A stretch of 64,000 bases of DNA from Thalassovita mediterranea. GTDB lineage: Bacteria; Pseudomonadota; Alphaproteobacteria; Caulobacterales; Hyphomonadaceae. Both the position numbers and the translations under genes were made by a program. Below are positions 2,808 to 10,854 of the stretch, one piece after another; positions within the stretch are counted from its first letter, which is position 1; every line of letters begins with the position of its first letter. The notes beneath the pieces were generated by a model that saw nothing but the letters and a program-made list of their open reading frames with translations, was not told where the DNA came from and did not search any database. The stretch is from NCBI GenBank assembly GCA_019448215.1, contig CP080408.1, positions 1,488,001-1,552,000 on the forward strand, read 5' to 3'.

Positions 2808-4052
2808 ATGATTTCGCACCATAAGACCCCTGCAAGGCGCGCAGGCCTTGAAAGATTGAATGAATTTGCGCCCCTGATGGGGGCGCACTATTCGCACCGG
2901 CGCAATATTGACCCGGGTGAAGATGGCCGCCCGAACGTTTCCCAGCTTTCCCCCTTTCTTCGTCACCGGCTGGTCAGCGAGGAAGAGGTCGCCTCCGCGG
3001 CCCTCACCGTGCATGGCGGCGAACAAGCCACGAAATTCATTCAGGAAATCTGTTGGCGGACATATTTCAAAGGCTGGCTGGAGCATCACCCGTCGGTCTG
3101 GTCAGACTATATTTCCGACCGTGATGCGCAATTTAATACCCTCGAAAAGGACAAGGGCCTACGCGCCGATTATGAGGCTGCAATTGAAGGCCGCGCCGGT
3201 ATCGAAGGCTTTGACCATTGGGCGAAAGAGCTCGCTGAAACCGGCTATCTCCACAACCACGCCCGCATGTCCTTTGCCTCGATCTGGCTCTTCACGCTGA
3301 AGTTGCCCTGGTCGCTCGGCGCAGACTTTTTCCTCCGCCACCTCCTCGACGGTGACCCCGCCTCCAACACATTGTCCTGGCGCTGGGTCGCTGGGCTTCA
3401 CACGCCGGGAAAGACCTATCTCGCCAAGAAGGAAGCCATTGAGACGTGCAGCGATGGAAGGTTCGCGCCGGGCAATCTCGCCCAGAGCGCCCGTCAGGTT
3501 CCGGGGCCAGAAAACCCCCAACCGCAACAGCTTCCGGCCCGCGACAGCCTGCCTGACGAGCGATTTGCGCTTCTTCTCACCGAGGATGATCTCAGCGTCG
3601 AAACATGGCTCAATGAGCATCTGGACATCGAGGCGATTGCCGGTTTGCATAGTGCAGAGAGCAGGTGCGCTGCAGACGTTTCGAAGAAGGCCATGTCCTT
3701 CACCAAAGGCGCCCTCGAAGATGGCCTTGCAAGGGCAGGCAGTCATTTCGGCGTTTCCACCCAAAGTCTCTCAGATGACAGCGACAAGCAATCCGCGCTG
3801 AAAGACTGGGCGAGCAGTCTTGAGACCCGGCACATTATTGTCCCCTACATCCCGGCCGGATGGACGCTCGATGCGCTGTCGCCGCTCCTGTCTGAGCTTC
3901 GGGCAGACGGGTTTCACATCCACCAGATCCGGCGTGACTGGGATGAGTGCTTCTGGCCGCACGCCAGGAAAGGTTTCTTCAAATTGCGCAAGCAGATCCC
4001 ATCTGTTCTGGACACGCTCGACATAGCAGAAGGTCTGAAGCTCGATGGCTGA
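2808..4052 (+). CDS. Photolyase/cryptochrome-like FAD protein without N-terminal antenna domain
   Basis: The first ~225 residues match the helical FAD-binding domain of the photolyase/cryptochrome family: SQLSPFLRHRLVS (45-57), EICWRTYFKGW (80-90), GYLHNHARM (146-154), and the DGDPASNTLSWRWVAG stretch (181-196) that lines the FAD pocket. Normal family members (about 450-500 residues) carry a Rossmann-like antenna domain before this. Here the protein starts directly with the FAD domain and instead has about 160 residues after it (about 255-414), with alternating strand/helix character (LLLTEDDLS, HIIVPYIPAGW). Light-driven repair or sensing is inferred from family only. The stop overlaps the next gene by eight bases, so translation is probably coupled. 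Confidence 0.82.
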   Translation: MISHHKTPARRAGLERLNEFAPLMGAHYSHRRNIDPGEDGRPNVSQLSPFLRHRLVSEEEVASAALTVHGGEQATKFIQEICWRTYFKGWLEHHPSVWSDYISDRDAQFNTLEKDKGLRADYEAAIEGRAGIEGFDHWAKELAETGYLHNHARMSFASIWLFTLKLPWSLGADFFLRHLLDGDPASNTLSWRWVAGLHTPGKTYLAKKEAIETCSDGRFAPGNLAQSARQVPGPENPQPQQLPARDSLPDERFALLLTEDDLSVETWLNEHLDIEAIAGLHSAESRCAADVSKKAMSFTKGALEDGLARAGSHFGVSTQSLSDDSDKQSALKDWASSLETRHIIVPYIPAGWTLDALSPLLSELRADGFHIHQIRRDWDECFWPHARKGFFKLRKQIPSVLDTLDIAEGLKLDG

Positions 4053-4332
4053 TCCTGAAATCAAGCACTCAGAAAGCGATAGCGGCGGGGTCTTCCACAC
4101 GACCATTGATGGCCACAAGGCCGAGATGACCTACTCCAAGGCAGGCACGACGGTCATGATCATTGATCATACGGGCGTGCCCGAAGCGCTCGGCGGTCAG
4201 GGCGTGGGTCTGAAGCTGGTTGAGGCGGGCATTGCCCTTGCGCGCGAGCGCGGGCTGAAAATCATGCCGCTCTGCCCCTTTGCCAAGGCGCAGTTCGAGA
4301 AGCACCCGGAATGGAAGGATGTTCTTCGATGA
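4045..4332 (+). CDS. Small GNAT-like N-acetyltransferase (YjdJ/NATD1 type), copy 1
   Basis: This 95-residue protein has the minimal GNAT fold of the COG2388/YjdJ group: a beta hairpin region (HKAEMTY), the VPEALGGQGVGLKLV acetyl-CoA loop (about 51-65), and a C-terminal LCPFAKAQFEKHPEW motif. Substrates of this group are not well established. It starts inside the photolyase-like gene and overlaps the next gene by four bases (ATGA). The neighbour at 4329 is a clear paralogue with the same G-loop and C-terminal motif, so this is a tandem duplication. Confidence 0.88.
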   Translation: MADPEIKHSESDSGGVFHTTIDGHKAEMTYSKAGTTVMIIDHTGVPEALGGQGVGLKLVEAGIALARERGLKIMPLCPFAKAQFEKHPEWKDVLR

Positions 4333-4604
4333 GCGACCTCACACTTCAAGATGATGGCAAGCAGCTGACAACGGATGTCGAAGGCCACGAACTTGTCATC
4401 CGCTATGGCTGGCAGGGCGATGACGTGATGCGCGTCGACTTTGTCGGTGTGCCATCGGCGCTCGGCGGACGCGGCCTCGGCACGAAGCTGGTCGGCAAGC
4501 TGGTTGAGAAAGCCCGAGCAGAGAATTTCAAGCTCGTGCCGGTCTGTGGTTTCGCCCGAACGCAGATCGACAGGCATCCGGACTGGAAGGATGTGCTCGC
4601 CTGA
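4329..4604 (+). CDS. Small GNAT-like N-acetyltransferase (YjdJ/NATD1 type), copy 2
   Basis: A 91-residue paralogue of the gene before it, sharing VPSALGGRGLGTKLV and the VCGFARTQIDRHPDWKDVL ending. I take the ATG at 4329, which overlaps the preceding stop as ATGA; an upstream in-frame ATG at 4311 lies inside copy 1 and is unlikely. Both copies keep the glycine-rich cofactor loop, so neither looks decayed. Their divergence (about half the residues differ) shows the duplication is not recent. Confidence 0.87.
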   Translation: MSDLTLQDDGKQLTTDVEGHELVIRYGWQGDDVMRVDFVGVPSALGGRGLGTKLVGKLVEKARAENFKLVPVCGFARTQIDRHPDWKDVLA

Positions 4605-4619
4605 TCCATTAAGTCAGGT

Positions 4620-5072
4620 ATGAGCAAGCCATTCTGGGAAACCAAAAGCCTGACAGAGATGACCCCGCAGGAGTGGGAGTCGCTTTGCGATGGCTGCGCG
4701 AAATGCTGCCTCATCAAACTCGAGGACGAAGATAGCGGCGACGTCGCCTATACGAGGCTGCACTGCAAACTGCTCGATGCCGACCTCTGCCGCTGCGCAG
4801 ACTATGAGAACCGTAAGGCCAAGGTGCCGGATTGCGTGATCCTGACGCCGAAATCGGTGTCAGAGCTGAGATGGATGCCGAAAAGCTGTGCCTATCGCCG
4901 CGTGCATGAGGGACGCGGACTGGAAGACTGGCATCATCTTGTCTGCGGTGATCGCCAGCGCATCCATGAGGTCGGCAAATCGATCATGGGCCAGACGGTG
5001 AGCGAAGAGACCGTCTTCGAGGAAGACCAGATTGACTGGATCATCGACTGGGACGGCAACCCGCCGGACTGA
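4620..5072 (+). CDS. YcgN-family cysteine-cluster protein (UPF0260)
   Basis: This 150-residue cytosolic protein has the family's CDGCAKCC cluster near residues 23-30, followed by further conserved cysteines (LHCKLLDADLCRCADY, PDCV, KSCAYR). The pattern suggests a bound metal or Fe-S centre; no activity is established for the family. It lies 15 bases after the second GNAT gene and probably ends the operon that begins with the photolyase-like gene. Its stop is followed after 36 bases by the convergent GumN-like gene. Confidence 0.9.
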   Translation: MSKPFWETKSLTEMTPQEWESLCDGCAKCCLIKLEDEDSGDVAYTRLHCKLLDADLCRCADYENRKAKVPDCVILTPKSVSELRWMPKSCAYRRVHEGRGLEDWHHLVCGDRQRIHEVGKSIMGQTVSEETVFEEDQIDWIIDWDGNPPD

Positions 5073-5108
5073 TCGCCAGTCCGGCAGATACCAGATTTCA
5101 AATGGGGC

Positions 5109-6158
5109 TTATGGCCCCTCGATCTCATAGCCCTTGTCGCGCAGCAGGGTGATGACGCTGTCAGGCCCTGCAAGATGGCCTGCGCCAACCGCAACAAAGA
5201 CGGTGCCTTCGACATCATCGAGGAAGCCTTCGATCTGCGGCACCCAGTTCTCGTTCCGCTCAACGAAGAGGGCGTCATAGATGCCGTCGCCGCCGCCCGT
5301 ATCCGGGTTCGCCACGAGCATGCCCAGACCTTCGACATCGCCGTCGCGCCACTCATCGACAACCTGATCGAGGGTGCGGCTGGTATCGCCCAGCGTGATG
5401 GAGGTCTCATAGAGGTAGGCGGCCTGCGTATCTTCGGGCAGTTCGTCAAAAATCGCGGCCTGGTCGGCGGCGGTTTCAAGGAAGGCGAATTCCTTTCCGG
5501 CCGCTTCTGCATCGGCGATCAGGATCTGCTCAATGCCGGCATTCGGGTCAAACCCATCAGACTGGAGCTGCAGAACGGAGAGGTTCACAGCCGCCATCCA
5601 TGGCTCCATCGGGTCGAAAGCCGAGACGGGCAGATTGAGGCCGGACAACGCCTCTTCAAAAGCGGTGAGGACCGGGTCTGGCAGCTCGTTGCTGAGCGTG
5701 CGCCCATCCCCATAGAAACCGCGAGACAGGAAATCACGGGCGACGGCCTGCTGACCTGCCTCGCTGACCATATCCAGTTCAAGGACGAGAACGTCAGCCG
5801 AATTGAATTTTTCGGTGAACTCATCGGTGCGCCAGTCTAGGTCCGGCCGCATCAGATGGACGGTGCCGAAGATATGGACCGTCGTGTCCTCGTCGGACAT
5901 GGTCCAGATCGCGGGTGAGCCGTCACCCTTCGTGGCCTGCGCCTGCTCCAGCGCCGCATCGAACTCAGCCATAAGCTCATCGCGCGAGCGATATTCGGCC
6001 GAGCCTTCAGGGCTCGTATCTTCGGCGCCCGTGCCGGTTTCGACGACGGCTGGCTCGTCGCTCGTGGCGGCCTCATCGCTGCCAGACGGGCTACAGGCTG
6101 CGAGCGCGGCAAAGGCAAGGGCACTCAGGCCTGAAACGAAATGGAAGCTGCGGCTCAT
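5109..6158 (-). CDS. TraB/GumN-family lipoprotein
   Basis: A 349-residue envelope protein. The chosen ATG at 6158 has a GAGGAG ribosome-binding site nine bases upstream and gives a clean lipoprotein signal ending in LAAC (about 19-22). The longer frame to 6191 would put residues before the signal. The mature part starts with an acidic, threonine-rich linker, then shows the TraB/GumN signatures HIFGTVHLM and, near the C terminus, VGAGHLAGPDSV. These motifs resemble the Tiki metalloprotease core, but activity in bacteria is not established. It is probably monocistronic. Confidence 0.88.
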   Translation of the reverse strand: MSRSFHFVSGLSALAFAALAACSPSGSDEAATSDEPAVVETGTGAEDTSPEGSAEYRSRDELMAEFDAALEQAQATKGDGSPAIWTMSDEDTTVHIFGTVHLMRPDLDWRTDEFTEKFNSADVLVLELDMVSEAGQQAVARDFLSRGFYGDGRTLSNELPDPVLTAFEEALSGLNLPVSAFDPMEPWMAAVNLSVLQLQSDGFDPNAGIEQILIADAEAAGKEFAFLETAADQAAIFDELPEDTQAAYLYETSITLGDTSRTLDQVVDEWRDGDVEGLGMLVANPDTGGGDGIYDALFVERNENWVPQIEGFLDDVEGTVFVAVGAGHLAGPDSVITLLRDKGYEIEGP

Positions 6159-6300
6159 ACGTGTAATCTCCTCAAGACGGGCGGCCTGCAATGCCGGCGA
6201 CAGGCTTTACTACATGCCAACGGACACTGGCACAAAGCTGATTTGGCGTGTTTCGCAAAGATTGCACCTGCCGCCCCATTCGCATAGAGGGATTGGCAAC

Positions 6301-6377
6301 GCACCTATAGCTCAGCTGGATAGAGCGCTGCCCTCCGAAGGCAGAGGTCACAGGTTCGAATCCTGTTAGGTGCGCCA
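6301..6377 (+). tRNA. tRNA-Arg (anticodon CCG)
   Basis: A 77-base cloverleaf. The seven-base acceptor stem (GCACCTA/TAGGTGC) is perfect, with discriminator G and an encoded CCA at 6375-6377. The anticodon loop CTCCGAA gives CCG, which reads arginine codon CGG. A normal TTCGAAT T-loop is present. Confidence 0.97.
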
Positions 6378-6395
6378 TTCCCTATTCAGACAAGA

Positions 6396-6920
6396 TTACC
6401 GCGTGACAGTGTCCCGCTTCATGGGCGCGAGTTTCGCAAGAAAGCGGTTCTGCATGCGGAACGGCACGCCTTCTTCATTCATGGCCGCCTGAAGGATTTC
6501 CACCACCGCAGCAAACTCGGCTGTGGTGACACCATGGTCGCGGTGGACCTCTTTCATGTCGCGGCCGGTATAGTCGCAGCCGCCGCCGAGAATATAGCAG
6601 AACTGCTCATTCAGCGTGCGCGTCAGGCGGACCCAGTCGGAGGCCGCAAAGATTTTTTCTGTGCGAGGATCCGTCCGCACGCCTTCGACGAAGCTGTCGA
6701 CAATACGCGCGATACCTTCGCGTCCATTGAATGCGGCGAGCACGCTCGGGTCCGAAATCGGGTCTGCGCCAGCATTTTTATTGGAGATTTCATAAGGGTC
6801 TACATGAAGCTCGCCCTCACGCATGTGCGCCGGCACTGCGTCTCCCTCATTGAGAGGCTGGGCGACTGCAGGACCAGCCAGGGCGATGATGAGTGCGATG
6901 GAGGCTGAGAAAATACGCAT
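6396..6920 (-). CDS. Exported group 1 truncated hemoglobin
   Basis: A 174-residue protein with a Sec signal peptide (about 1-20, cut after AVA) and a 40-residue leader before a truncated-globin domain (about 60-174). The family's proximal histidine fits H126 in the MKEVH motif, followed by the usual F/G/H-helix pattern (EFAAVVEILQ...GVPF...NRFLAKLAPMKRD). Group 1 truncated globins bind O2 or NO, or carry out electron transfer. Export to the periplasm is unusual for globins. It begins three bases after the DUF3034 stop, so the two are one transcript. Two extra cysteines (108 and 115) could form a disulfide. Confidence 0.87.
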   Translation of the reverse strand: MRIFSASIALIIALAGPAVAQPLNEGDAVPAHMREGELHVDPYEISNKNAGADPISDPSVLAAFNGREGIARIVDSFVEGVRTDPRTEKIFAASDWVRLTRTLNEQFCYILGGGCDYTGRDMKEVHRDHGVTTAEFAAVVEILQAAMNEEGVPFRMQNRFLAKLAPMKRDTVTR

Positions 6921-6923
6921 GGG

Positions 6924-7829
6924 CTAGAATCCCAGTTGGAGTGAAAGATAGAGGCCGCGCTGGTCTTCAAAAGTCGCGATCGACCCGAGGTCGGCATAGG
7001 CCGCTGTGAGGGTGACATTCCTGTTCAGCGCATAGGCTGCAAAGACATCGAACCAGTCTTCTTCCTGCGCGAAGGCGAGATTGTCCGGCTTCATCCGGTA
7101 TTCCCCGCCAATGACGAGACGCCGGGAAAGCATATAGGCCACAGAGACTTCAGGCTGGAGCTGATGGTCGTTTGTGCCGCCAAAGCCCAGAAGGCCGTTC
7201 TGGTTGGCGTCGGTATAACGAAGCGTCGCATTCAGAAGCAGGCTTTGCGCAAGCAAAAGCTTCGTCGCGCTGGCATAGACTTCGACGCCATCATCATCTT
7301 CAGCGCCGAGTGCATTGAGGAGCGGGCCGTGATCTGCGGACTTGTAGAAGGCGCCCACAGCAATCTGCGGCAGCCACTTGTCCTGGTCATAGACCGCATC
7401 GCCAGCAAGGCGTAGCTTTGCGCCGACGATGTCCTGATTGAATGTGAACCCGTCGCCGATGCCGAGCGCCGCGCCAGTGCTGCCCGTGTCGAATTCCTGA
7501 CGCGAATAGCTGATCTCGAACCGGTTATAGAAGCCAGCCGCAGCGCCATAGGACTCAAAAGTGTAATCTGGCAGGTCGAGATAGGTGTAATGGGCCGTGC
7601 CACCTATGCCGCGATCGGTCGAGTTGCCGGCGATGACCGCCCAGGGCGTGATGCCGCCGCCTGCCGCGCCGTCGACATCGGTCACGCCGCGGGTGAGCAG
7701 CAGTTTTCCGCCTGTCTCGAAATCCAGCATGTCAGCATGCGCTGCCGTGACCGGAGCCCCGATCAAAATACCCGCTGCCATAGCCGCCCGAAGCGGCATG
7801 ATTACGCTTCTGCGAAGTCGTGAAAGCAT
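6924..7829 (-). CDS. DUF3034-family outer-membrane barrel
   Basis: The start at 7829 is set by an AGGGGTG ribosome-binding site six bases upstream; the ATG at 7847 would place this site inside the gene. The signal peptide (about 1-33) is followed by the DUF3034 opening GGKLLLTRGVTDVDGAAGGG and then alternating amphipathic strands, ending in a phenylalanine (SLQLGF) as in outer-membrane barrels. The function of the family is unknown. It is the first gene of a two-gene operon with the truncated globin and is divergent from the cupredoxin gene, 89 bases away. Confidence 0.87.
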   Translation of the reverse strand: MLSRLRRSVIMPLRAAMAAGILIGAPVTAAHADMLDFETGGKLLLTRGVTDVDGAAGGGITPWAVIAGNSTDRGIGGTAHYTYLDLPDYTFESYGAAAGFYNRFEISYSRQEFDTGSTGAALGIGDGFTFNQDIVGAKLRLAGDAVYDQDKWLPQIAVGAFYKSADHGPLLNALGAEDDDGVEVYASATKLLLAQSLLLNATLRYTDANQNGLLGFGGTNDHQLQPEVSVAYMLSRRLVIGGEYRMKPDNLAFAQEEDWFDVFAAYALNRNVTLTAAYADLGSIATFEDQRGLYLSLQLGF

Positions 7830-7918
7830 AAAGTCACCCCTGATCATTTCTGGTCGGGGGCGAGAAATAGCGCGCGATAATTAATAGATGTGTAAATAAC
7901 ATTGTATAGAAAATAAGA
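7830..7918. promoter_or_regulatory. AT-rich divergent promoter region
   Basis: This 89-base gap between two divergent operons is much richer in A+T than its surroundings, notably around 7876-7918. It must hold both promoters. No -35/-10 pair stands out clearly enough to assign. Confidence 0.45.
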
Positions 7919-8524
7919 ATGAGACTATTTTCGCTTTTCCTGTTGCTGGTATCCGTTTCGCTGCCGGCCTTTGCGCGTCCGATTATTGTCGTCGACTCTT
8001 CCGGTGAGCCTGTGGCCAACGCCGTCGTCAGTTTTGATACGGGCGGCGCGGCGCCCTCTTCCTACGGCCAGCCGCTCGCACTCAGTCAGCAGGACATTCG
8101 CTTCAAGCCTTATGTACTGGCAGTTCCGACAGGCGCGGATGTGACCTTTCCAAACCTCGACCGTGTACGTCACCACGTTTACTCATTCTCGCGTGGCAAC
8201 AGGTTCGAGCTCGAACTTTATGGCCGCGAAGAGCAGCGTTTTGTCACCTTCGATACGCCCGGCACGGTTGCGATCGGCTGCAACATCCATGACCTCATGC
8301 TCGCCTATATCCACGTTACTGACGCCGCTTATGCCGGTGTCACCGACGCTGATGGGCGCGTCGAGATCGAAGGCCTCCCGGCTGATGCTGGCATCGCGCA
8401 GGTCTGGCAGCCCGACATGTCCGGCGGCCAGACGGTCGATGTGACGCCGGTGCTCGACGGCGAGACGATGAAGCTGGCGCTCCCTGCTCGCTATTCGCCG
8501 CCGCCACCAGGCGCTGCCGAATAG
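7919..8524 (+). CDS. Periplasmic cupredoxin-like protein (often labelled methylamine utilization protein)
   Basis: A 201-residue exported protein with signal peptide 1-19. It has a cupredoxin-like fold with all four possible type 1 copper ligands visible: His85/86 in RHHVYSF, Cys121 and His124 in GCNIHD, and Met127 in LMLAY. A C-terminal carboxypeptidase-regulatory-like beta domain (about 140-190) follows. The common database name links it to methylamine use, but no mau genes are nearby, so the name is probably misleading. It is ten bases upstream of the EAL-domain gene and is likely its periplasmic partner or signal source. The ribosome-binding site is weak. Confidence 0.85.
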   Translation: MRLFSLFLLLVSVSLPAFARPIIVVDSSGEPVANAVVSFDTGGAAPSSYGQPLALSQQDIRFKPYVLAVPTGADVTFPNLDRVRHHVYSFSRGNRFELELYGREEQRFVTFDTPGTVAIGCNIHDLMLAYIHVTDAAYAGVTDADGRVEIEGLPADAGIAQVWQPDMSGGQTVDVTPVLDGETMKLALPARYSPPPPGAAE

Positions 8525-8534
8525 GGCGCGGCGC

Positions 8535-10772
8535 ATGGCCTTCCGGCACCTAAAGACCAAACTTGTCGTTTCCTATGGCGGGCTTCTAGGACTGATCCTG
8601 GCGGTCATCGTGCTGGCGAGCTATTTCGCGATTGAGGCGGCGGCGCGCGAGAAAATCGACGACGAAATGGCCGCAACCGAAGCGGTCTCCAACCGTCTGT
8701 GGCAGATGCGGGCCGACAAGCTGGAGGAGGCTGCCAGCGTTGTCTCGCGCGATTTCGGTTTCCGCGAAGCGGTGGCCACCGATGATGTCGCCACCATGTC
8801 CTCGGCGCTCGAAAACTTCCTCAACAGGCTGGATGCCGAAGCCGCCTTCATCGTGACCTCTGACGGGCGAGGCCTCAGGGGCGGCGCGGTGGAGACCGAA
8901 ACGGTCGATGCAGAGCTTCTGGCGGCGCTGAACGCCAATGGGCAGGAAACAGGTGTGGCCGCGCTGGACGGGGCTGTGCACCAGATCGTTTCACGTCCGA
9001 TCATGGCCCCGACCCTTCTCGGCTGGGTGCTCTTTGCCGAAAGGCTCGATGAGGCAGAGCTGAGCGAACTTGAGACCCTGTCGGCCATTCCGCTGACCGC
9101 GCAAATCCTGATCGACGGGCAGTATGGAGACGATGCCGGAAACAAGCCCGGCTTTGTGACGCGCTCAAGCCCGATCAAGGGCTTTGGGCATTTGCCTGAT
9201 GCCGTCCTCAAGCTTGAATACCCGCTAGCTGGAGCCATGGCGCCTTTCAGGAGCATGCTGCTCATCATCGCGCTCATGGCTGCAGGCGGCATTGTCGCCT
9301 TGCTGGTCTGCACGTGGTTCATCTCTCGCACGGTGACCGGTCCGATCATGAAGCTGGATGCGGCGGCGCAGGCGATTGCAAGCGGGAAGAAGGCCGGCCT
9401 CGACGTGAAAGCCGATGATGAGATCGGCCGGCTCGCGAACAGCTTTTCCCACATGGTCAAAGAGGTGCAGGCGCGTGAGGAAAATATCCTCAAACTCTCC
9501 CTGACAGATCCGGAAACAGAGCTGCCGAACCGCCGGGCGATGGAGATGTTCCTCGCCGGAACGGACCGCGCGGATGTCTACTGCGCTGCGATTAGCCCCG
9601 ACAGGTTTGCGAATATCACTTCGGTTATTGGTCAGGCAGCGAGCAACGAACTGGTGGCCCTGCTTGGCCAGCGGCTTCAGGAGATGCCGGATGTCCTCGC
9701 ACTCGGCCGGCTTGGCGGAGAAGTCATCGGGGTTGCGATAGGCGCAGCCAGCCATGAAGAGGCGCGTATCCGCCTCAGCGCCATTCTGGAGGGGGCCGGT
9801 CGCCCGGTCCGGGTGCGCGGCGAGCTGGTTGATGTGCAGCTTTCGGCAGGTTTCGCGCCGCTCGGCTCAGACGGAAAGCTCGCACCGCTCGATGAGTCGG
9901 TTATCGGCCTCCATCAGGCCAGGCAGCGCCGCCTTCCTGTCTTTGCGTTCGACAAGGTCGCTTATGGTGATCCGAGTGGCACGCTCTCGCTGATGAGCGA
10001 GATGGTGGCAGGCATGGAGGATGGCAGTCTCTACCTGACCTACCAGCCAAAGGTGGACCTTCGCAGCCAGACGGTCTGCAGCGCGGAGGCCCTGCTTCGC
10101 TGGGAGCATCCAGAGCGCGGTTTCGTTTCGCCTGAGGACTTCGTCCGCGCCGCCGAAGAGACTGGCCACATTCGCCCCTTGAGCGAATGGGTGTTCAGGC
10201 AGGTCAGGGATGAGCGGGCCCGCTTCCTCGATGCGGGGCATGACATCAAGGTCGCCGTCAATCTTTCAGGTCGGCTTCTGACTGATACCGAATTCCTTCG
10301 CTGGAGCATTGGCTTCATCGGCGCAGAGGCAGATCGCTACTGCCTCGAAGTGACCGAAACGGCGGTCATCGATGACCCGAAACTGGCGCTTTCCAATATC
10401 CAGCTGCTGCGTGAAGCAGGCTTTGAGATATCCATCGACGATTATGGCTCAGGCCTGTCGTCGCTTTCCTATCTGAAACAGATCCCGGCGCATGAGCTCA
10501 AGATCGACAAGAGTTTCGTGCTCCCTCTGAAAGTTGGCTCCTCAGATGCGCTTCTGATCAAGTCGACGATCGATCTCGCGCACAGTCTCGGGATGAAGGT
10601 CACGGCTGAGGGCGTCGAGACGCGCGAGATCATGTCCATGCTGTCGGTCATGGGTGCCGACCGCGCTCAAGGCTACTACATCTCGCGCCCGGTCGGGTCT
10701 GACAGCATGATCAGCTTCCTCGACAGCTTCACAGTCGAAGCTGACGACGAGCAATCCTTGAAGGCGGGATGA
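8535..10772 (+). CDS. Membrane HAMP-degenerate GGDEF-EAL protein, predicted c-di-GMP phosphodiesterase
   Basis: 745 residues: membrane helix (about 14-34), a periplasmic sensor region (about 35-235), second helix (about 238-262), HAMP (about 263-312), GGDEF-like domain (about 320-460) and EAL domain (about 490-735). The catalytic GGDEF motif reads GGEVI (394-398), so cyclase activity is unlikely. The EAL domain keeps its active-site signatures: EAL at 518-520, the NLSGR asparagine, VTET, DDYGSG near 635, LKIDKSF, AEGVET and AQGYY. It should therefore hydrolyse c-di-GMP under control of its periplasmic domain. It is co-directional with the cupredoxin gene, which acts on the same side of the membrane as the sensor. 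Confidence 0.93.
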   Translation: MAFRHLKTKLVVSYGGLLGLILAVIVLASYFAIEAAAREKIDDEMAATEAVSNRLWQMRADKLEEAASVVSRDFGFREAVATDDVATMSSALENFLNRLDAEAAFIVTSDGRGLRGGAVETETVDAELLAALNANGQETGVAALDGAVHQIVSRPIMAPTLLGWVLFAERLDEAELSELETLSAIPLTAQILIDGQYGDDAGNKPGFVTRSSPIKGFGHLPDAVLKLEYPLAGAMAPFRSMLLIIALMAAGGIVALLVCTWFISRTVTGPIMKLDAAAQAIASGKKAGLDVKADDEIGRLANSFSHMVKEVQAREENILKLSLTDPETELPNRRAMEMFLAGTDRADVYCAAISPDRFANITSVIGQAASNELVALLGQRLQEMPDVLALGRLGGEVIGVAIGAASHEEARIRLSAILEGAGRPVRVRGELVDVQLSAGFAPLGSDGKLAPLDESVIGLHQARQRRLPVFAFDKVAYGDPSGTLSLMSEMVAGMEDGSLYLTYQPKVDLRSQTVCSAEALLRWEHPERGFVSPEDFVRAAEETGHIRPLSEWVFRQVRDERARFLDAGHDIKVAVNLSGRLLTDTEFLRWSIGFIGAEADRYCLEVTETAVIDDPKLALSNIQLLREAGFEISIDDYGSGLSSLSYLKQIPAHELKIDKSFVLPLKVGSSDALLIKSTIDLAHSLGMKVTAEGVETREIMSMLSVMGADRAQGYYISRPVGSDSMISFLDSFTVEADDEQSLKAG

Positions 10773-10780
10773 GGTTGGCC

Positions 10781-10854
10781 TGGAGCGGATAGCGGGAATC
10801 GAACCCGCATCCTCAGCTTGGAAGGCTGCTGCACTACCATTGTGCTATATCCGC
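10781..10854 (-). tRNA. tRNA-Gly (anticodon TCC)
   Basis: A 74-base cloverleaf on the minus strand. The acceptor stem GCGGATA/TATCCGC is perfect, with CCA encoded at 10781-10783. The anticodon loop CTTCCAA gives TCC. It is the downstream member of a Tyr-Gly tRNA pair, with 311 bases between the two. Confidence 0.96.

Follow-up and report, generated by a model that had tools for sequence, protein, structure and literature searches.

A conserved four-gene cassette in Pseudomonadota pairs a putative blue copper protein with the sensor of a predicted cyclic di-GMP phosphodiesterase

The window analysed here is a stretch of 64,000 nucleotides of Thalassovita mediterranea (contig CP080408.1, positions 1,488,001 to 1,552,000). 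Between two tRNA genes it carries two divergent gene pairs, one encoding an exported truncated globin and a DUF3034 protein, the other an exported cupredoxin-like protein, hereafter CUP, and a membrane protein with an EAL domain (Table 1). The EAL domain is the one associated with hydrolysis of cyclic dimeric guanosine monophosphate (c-di-GMP). Gene starts were assigned mechanically. The DUF3034 protein is 93% identical to that of Henriciella sp. UWMA-0297, the nearest contig. The intergenic regions of 10 divergent and 26 other loci, scanned by eye without a motif program, revealed no common operator motif and no FNR-like match.

Table 1. Features of the cassette and its borders in the window (aa, amino acids)
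Feature	Position	Strand	Basis
tRNA-Arg(CCG), left border of the cassette	6301..6377	+	ARAGORN; also left border of the empty site in five relatives
Globin gene, exported group-1 truncated globin, 174 aa	6396..6920	-	Pfam match confirmed
Globin residues	proximal His126 6543-6545; Cys115 6576-6578; Cys108 6597-6599	-	alignment of 41
DUF3034 gene, probable outer-membrane beta-barrel, 307 aa	6924..7847	-	PF11231 6.6e-101
Divergent intergenic region, 71 bp, both promoters presumed inside	7848..7918		gene layout
CUP gene, exported cupredoxin-like protein, 201 aa	7919..8524	+	structure model, cupredoxin matches
Predicted copper ligands of CUP	His85 8171-8173; Cys121 8279-8281; His124 8288-8290; Met127 8297-8299	+	alignment
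EAL protein gene, membrane protein, 745 aa: dCache_3/CHASE4-like sensor, HAMP, degenerate GGDEF, intact EAL	8535..10772	+	Pfam
Periplasmic sensor domain of the EAL protein, residues 30-238, DFGF..AVA...T..S.L motif	8622..9248	+	alignment A4
tRNA-Gly(TCC), right border of the cassette	10781..10854	-	ARAGORN; also right border of the empty site

The four families are strongly linked across Pseudomonadota. In a survey of 398 genomes from 212 genera, DUF3034 was found in 38 genomes (27 genera), and in every one of them it is adjoined by an exported group-1 truncated globin. This class of globin, delimited at 141 bits or more with the next score at 95, occupies 41 places in 40 genomes, which include all 38 with DUF3034 and only two of the other 360 (Fisher p 4e-51, the kinship of genomes being ignored). 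CUP, delimited at 137.9 bits or more with the next score at 119.6, is found at 57 places in 51 genomes, and 32 of these places lie beside DUF3034. A protein of dCache-HAMP-GGDEF-EAL architecture adjoins DUF3034 in 30 of the 38 genomes. All four genes stand side by side in 29; three genomes combine DUF3034, globin and CUP without the EAL gene, and one has DUF3034, globin and EAL without CUP. The complete sets of the survey are arranged as CUP-EAL-DUF3034-globin (22), divergently (6) or as DUF3034-globin-CUP-EAL (1), and among all 45 loci inspected the same orders are represented by 22, 9 (divergent like the window) and 2 loci, respectively. The existence of three distinct orders suggests that the linkage outlasts rearrangement. 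An intact globin gene adjoins DUF3034 at 44 of the 45 loci; the remaining one is a second, fragmented DUF3034 copy in G078, beside a globin match with one stop. Pairwise distances of the four proteins correlate at r 0.68-0.82 over 33 loci, against a highest shuffled value of 0.23, with the species tree not corrected for. Locus L037, on the same contig as L080, was omitted. CUP is also present in 12 of 13 plasmid records with DUF3034. Two of these records show all four genes, annotated as DUF3034 family protein, group 1 truncated hemoglobin, methylamine utilization protein or carboxypeptidase regulatory-like protein (CUP), and EAL domain-containing protein, while a plasmid of Comamonas bears CUP and EAL without DUF3034 and globin. 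These counts rule out chance clustering. A sequence-only reading of the window had stated that the families sit together in other proteobacteria, and the statement proved correct, with linkage far beyond chance. Its placement of all four products in the envelope is likewise supported. The notion of a single module stands insofar as the genes form a linked set and is incomplete in that the survey yields two nested units, DUF3034-globin and CUP-sensor, the latter also occurring together with a different barrel-like family and different output domains.

By co-occurrence, CUP is associated with the periplasmic sensor domain and not with EAL as such. In a profile search of 80 genomes, 41 of the 43 with CUP have the sensor subfamily, against 1 of the 37 without (Fisher p 3e-19, kinship ignored); the search took in 43 of the 51 CUP genomes, leaving eight out, and 7 of the 37 genomes counted as lacking CUP have weak CUP-like matches of 23-42 bits. 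Because the sensor profile was built from CUP-linked proteins, the fair figure is that for the CUP genomes contributing no row to it, of which 18 out of 20 have the subfamily (p 1e-11). In five of the 41 genomes (G142, G158, G375, G015 and G126) the sensor lies apart from CUP, so that their co-occurrence is more than a matter of linkage. Of the 25 places where CUP occurs away from DUF3034, 14 have a strong EAL relative beside it. The output domain appears to be exchangeable: in G064 (L088:1079-3849) CUP stands beside a dCache_3-HAMP-nucleotide cyclase scoring 176.6 bits with the sensor profile, and in G154 (L095:3529-7558) beside a dCache_3-HAMP-Ser/Thr protein kinase with a weak profile score of 37.6 bits. 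At L084 the sensor protein next to CUP is cut by the contig end within the gene. A chemotaxis receptor at L114 was considered as a third output and not counted, since that locus has weak CUP-like matches of 51 and 58 bits. CUP-like proteins are also seen with hybrid PAS kinases (L109:2221-6829, L110:3850-10175), and L109 encodes in addition a protein with two CxxCH motifs, di-heme peroxidase-like by eye.

The outer-membrane side of the set appears to be exchangeable as well. Close to CUP or the CUP-EAL pair, 14 of the 25 places away from DUF3034 (L082-L106, for example L091:9458-10696) encode a second family of barrel-like proteins, about 415 aa long. None of the DUF3034 loci has a member of it, as judged from the open reading frames of the fetched stretches. 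Pfam searches with three members returned sub-threshold Porin_4 matches for two and nothing for the third. The CUP tree contains at least two changes of the label for this family on well-supported branches, and the outer-membrane partner was therefore probably swapped more than once. The second family can stand in for DUF3034 and globin.

The structure model of CUP (predicted local distance difference test, pLDDT, 90.7) displays a cupredoxin fold by matches to both model and sequence, the Pfam match being sub-threshold only. The cupredoxin domain, approximately residues 48-135, is set within a second beta domain. His85, Cys121, His124 and Met127 are all retained by 38 of 38 CUPs, in alignments that omitted proteins longer than 260 aa, and by 30 of 30 additional homologues found in other contexts; length limits were also applied in another step. 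The four residues, initially proposed as possible copper ligands, make up a complete type-1 site by sequence, and CUP is predicted to be a type-1 blue copper protein. Its fold and its ligands, a histidine and a Cys-x2-His-x2-Met loop, are shared with amicyanin and plastocyanin, the loop presumably having the spacing of amicyanin's. Unlike these proteins, CUP has an additional beta domain, weakly similar to CarboxypepD_reg, and is accompanied by a sensor, not by a dehydrogenase.

The EAL site of the membrane protein retains its catalytic columns intact: E518, L520, R522, N576, E605, E608, D635, D636, K656, E692 and Q712 are each conserved in 35 of 35 sequences, and A519 of the EAL motif in 34. 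(One of the 35, from L048, is encoded about 1.7 kb off on the other strand and scores 451 bits; it was omitted from the sensor alignment A4.) The protein is predicted to be a c-di-GMP phosphodiesterase. Its GGDEF motif is degenerate (GGEVI), and the window protein thus lacks the intact motif of a diguanylate cyclase, while relatives mostly retain the motif residues (D in 24, E in 27 and F in 22 of 35). The sensor domain scores above the Pfam cut-off for dCache_3 and below it for CHASE4 (2.3e-5, 25.0 bits against a cut-off of 26.2). A search of solved structures with profile A4 yielded no CHASE4 entry up to E 1 and no convincing relative of the sensor. Among the 34 sequences of A4, D44, G46, A50, T58, S61 and R69 (aligned-segment numbering) are invariant, and no His, Cys or Met is, which favours a metal carried by a partner. 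Some loci have tandem EAL genes, with a second EAL relative of similar build on the other side of CUP (L042:1555-3987 and 4765-7200, L043, L049).

The globin model (pLDDT 89.5) is that of a group-1 truncated hemoglobin, with a 2-on-2 fold nearest to group 1, and the closest solved relatives are trHbN-type globins. C108, C115, Y117, G119, M122 and H126, the proximal His F8, are invariant in all 41 sequences, and the globin is probably heme-binding. Aligned to trHbN, its distal pocket is hydrophobic at the positions we take to be B10 (L, V, I or M in 40 of 41), E7 (41 of 41) and E11 (L, F or I in 41 of 41). The polar pocket of trHbN, with Tyr B10 and Gln E11, is not found here, which separates the protein from trHbN and not from the fold family. 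Such an apolar pocket argues against oxygen storage or trHbN-like dioxygenation of nitric oxide (NO); it would leave the sensing of NO or CO, a part in handling heme, or redox reactions of the cysteine pair. A lipobox pattern occurs in 21 of the 41 sequences, which suggests that the globin is probably a lipoprotein in many relatives; the window's globin does not have it. Genomes without DUF3034 can also encode this class of globin, complete with Cys pair and lipobox (L107:6058-6654, L108:6249-6695). DUF3034 is a probable outer-membrane barrel, with an N-terminal hydrophobic stretch and a C-terminal residue that is F in 27, Y in 3, W in 2 and L in 6 of 38 sequences. The only matches of DUF3034 among solved structures, two weak ones to Ika8/Ika4 over 39 residues, were not accepted as homology. 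At L039 (7974-11713) one run of genes encodes DUF3034, globin, a short plastocyanin-type protein (Copper-bind 3e-5) and a HAMP-PAS-histidine kinase; since this kinase shows no dCache domain, the locus is treated as a lead only.

Within the window's genus (Henriciella type), CUP is present in 3 of 25 genomes, and the site matching the cassette was taken from 14. In five of the 14, tRNA-Arg is followed directly by tRNA-Gly, at a spacing of 26 bp in G401, G411 and G309, 61 bp in G409 and 32 bp in G432; the left flank is 95%, 86% and 90% identical to the window in G401, G411 and G309, respectively. Two genomes (G402 and G415) have other genes between the two tRNAs, and one (G406) has a complete cassette that does not have tRNA-Arg on its left. 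In another five of the 14, including G407, no tRNA-Arg was found in the stretch. The cassette would be gained or lost as a block; its presence and absence as a block are seen directly, and gain is not separable from loss in this comparison. The interval between the tRNAs (window 6301-10854; L120, L124) is insertion-prone and varies in content among relatives. Relatives of the cassette's EAL protein occur in two genomes of the genus without CUP (L126:7071-9347, L121:1815-4064), in one case inside the tRNA-Arg to tRNA-Gly site. The 3' end of tRNA-Arg was examined in G416 as an attachment site and was unconvincing. Elsewhere in the window, adjoining small open reading frames of similar sequence (4045-4332 and 4311-4604) look like a tandem duplicate.

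We consider it moderately probable that the four genes constitute a copper- and heme-dependent, envelope-spanning sensor cassette controlling c-di-GMP hydrolysis. A copper site without obvious catalytic company, next to a sensor without metal ligands of its own, suggests CUP as a ligand- or redox-reading subunit. With its type-1 copper site, CUP would be a partner dedicated to the dCache-type sensor domain, and its state, either copper loading or copper redox, would reach the EAL phosphodiesterase by way of the sensor and HAMP and alter c-di-GMP breakdown. DUF3034 and the globin would form a second pair that supplies or conditions the signal; the likeliest signals are NO or another diatomic gas, a change in redox state, and copper access to the periplasm. 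The chain would then start at the outer membrane with DUF3034 and the globin, continue in the periplasm with CUP and end at the sensor in the inner membrane and its EAL output. We infer in this scheme a direct contact between CUP and the sensor, the binding of copper and heme, the identity of the signal and the direction of the phosphodiesterase change.

Several observations weigh against such a cassette. Nine of the 38 DUF3034 genomes do not have the local four-gene set, and five of these hold DUF3034 and globin alone, which indicates that this pair can manage without a local EAL protein. Conversely, CUP has no adjoining sensor protein at eight of its 25 places outside the DUF3034 loci (one of them lies at a contig end), and in G119 the sensor is present but a strong CUP is missing. 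Within the window's genus, G417 and G407 keep the EAL relative and have no CUP in the tRNA site; the site of G417 holds the EAL relative only, and in G407 the relative lies further off. The window's CUP has Gln164 in place of the 'WHP' histidine, which is present in 33 of 38 sequences. The genome comparisons are also not phylogenetically independent.

The arrangement of an outer-membrane protein with a periplasmic metal protein is a common layout of uptake systems, and the cassette might accordingly serve metal or heme acquisition, with DUF3034 as an uptake channel, the globin as a heme or gas carrier, CUP chaperoning or storing copper, and the EAL protein only reporting nutrient state. The pairing of CUP with the second barrel-like family fits this explanation, but no recurring inner-membrane transporter was seen beside the sets at 11 + 33 loci, read by eye with no search aimed at it, and DUF3034 matched no TonB-dependent receptor family; we regard acquisition as unlikely. 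Lower still do we place detoxification of NO or oxygen in the envelope, whereby the globin would act as an exported NO dioxygenase or peroxidase, CUP as its electron donor, and the phosphodiesterase would promote escape. Copper and heme are both redox cofactors, and mycobacterial trHbN, a member of the type to which the closest solved relatives of the globin belong, is an NO dioxygenase. However, the residues by which trHbN steadies oxygen are absent from the hydrophobic pocket of the globin, and CUP also occurs without the globin.

That the genes are neighbours through common descent or joint mobility and do not work together would agree with their patchy distribution and with the inter-tRNA site that holds different genes in relatives. 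Such an origin appears very improbable in the face of three four-gene orders, recurrence in alpha-, beta- and gamma-type lineages, and the co-occurrence of CUP and sensor even when they lie apart. A role in methylamine oxidation or maturation is suggested by the database name of CUP, 'methylamine utilization protein' on 8 of 20 plasmid matches, and by the amicyanin-like copper loop, and is scarcely credible. It is contradicted by the distribution of the methylamine dehydrogenase light chain, which is found in 12 of the 398 genomes, in none of the 38 with DUF3034 and in one of the 51 with CUP (G288, on contigs other than that of CUP). The doubt that the sequence-only reading had cast on this name is thereby borne out.

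The sensor cassette that we favour resembles known systems in parts. YfiBNR similarly extends over three layers, with an outer-membrane or lipoprotein part, a periplasmic adaptor and an inner-membrane c-di-GMP enzyme; this enzyme is a cyclase, and YfiR and YfiB are neither cupredoxin nor globin. Pseudomonas aeruginosa PA2072/IsmP, PA14_37690 and PA14_53310 are likewise GGDEF-EAL membrane proteins whose periplasmic sensor is of the CHASE4/dCache type, with iron, heme or copper as reported ligands (PMC13277305). Those sensors are reported to bind the ligand themselves, whereas the cassette's sensor has no invariant metal ligand and adjoins a copper protein. HmsC, a periplasmic redox-sensitive protein with cysteine pairs, acts with the membrane cyclase HmsD, and is similar in joining a periplasmic redox-sensitive protein to a membrane c-di-GMP enzyme; it differs in its use of cysteine pairs and a cyclase, and the available text mentions no copper protein, globin or barrel in this system (PMC8846402). 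Globin-coupled sensors of the DosC/DgcO type also tie a globin to c-di-GMP, according to the same article, but their globin is fused and cytoplasmic, and that of the cassette is separate, exported and truncated (PMC8846402).

We searched the open-licence full-text literature and found no description of the four-gene set; subscription or unpublished work may exist. In the passages retrieved, 'DUF3034' appears only in the figure legend of a retron paper, which elsewhere has DUF3037, and in an actinobacterial gene list. 'Cupredoxin' and 'EAL domain' occur together nowhere in this literature, nor do 'methylamine utilization protein' and 'c-di-GMP', and the available parts of PMC13380032 and PMC3770913 contain nothing on the set. 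The cassette is real and conserved and, as far as the literature searched extends, undescribed. It is a variant of periplasm-fed c-di-GMP control, in which copper, heme and their signal would presumably take part.

The signals of most periplasmic c-di-GMP sensors lack assignment, and the cassette points to a copper- or heme-borne signal read outside the cytoplasm. DUF3034, a family without an assigned function, and a misnamed cupredoxin thereby gain a testable role. More tentatively, the exchanges of partners might define a class of 'cupredoxin-coupled sensors', in which a periplasmic blue copper protein is the interchangeable reader of dCache-HAMP sensors. The output could be a c-di-GMP phosphodiesterase, a nucleotide cyclase or a protein kinase, and the partner at the outer membrane either DUF3034 with an exported disulfide-type globin or a different barrel; in the window, copper and heme would jointly read NO, oxygen or redox state and set c-di-GMP. 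If output swapping is true, one copper protein family would serve several second-messenger and phosphorylation systems, and the coupling of envelope redox or copper state to behaviour would have been found to proceed in a new way.

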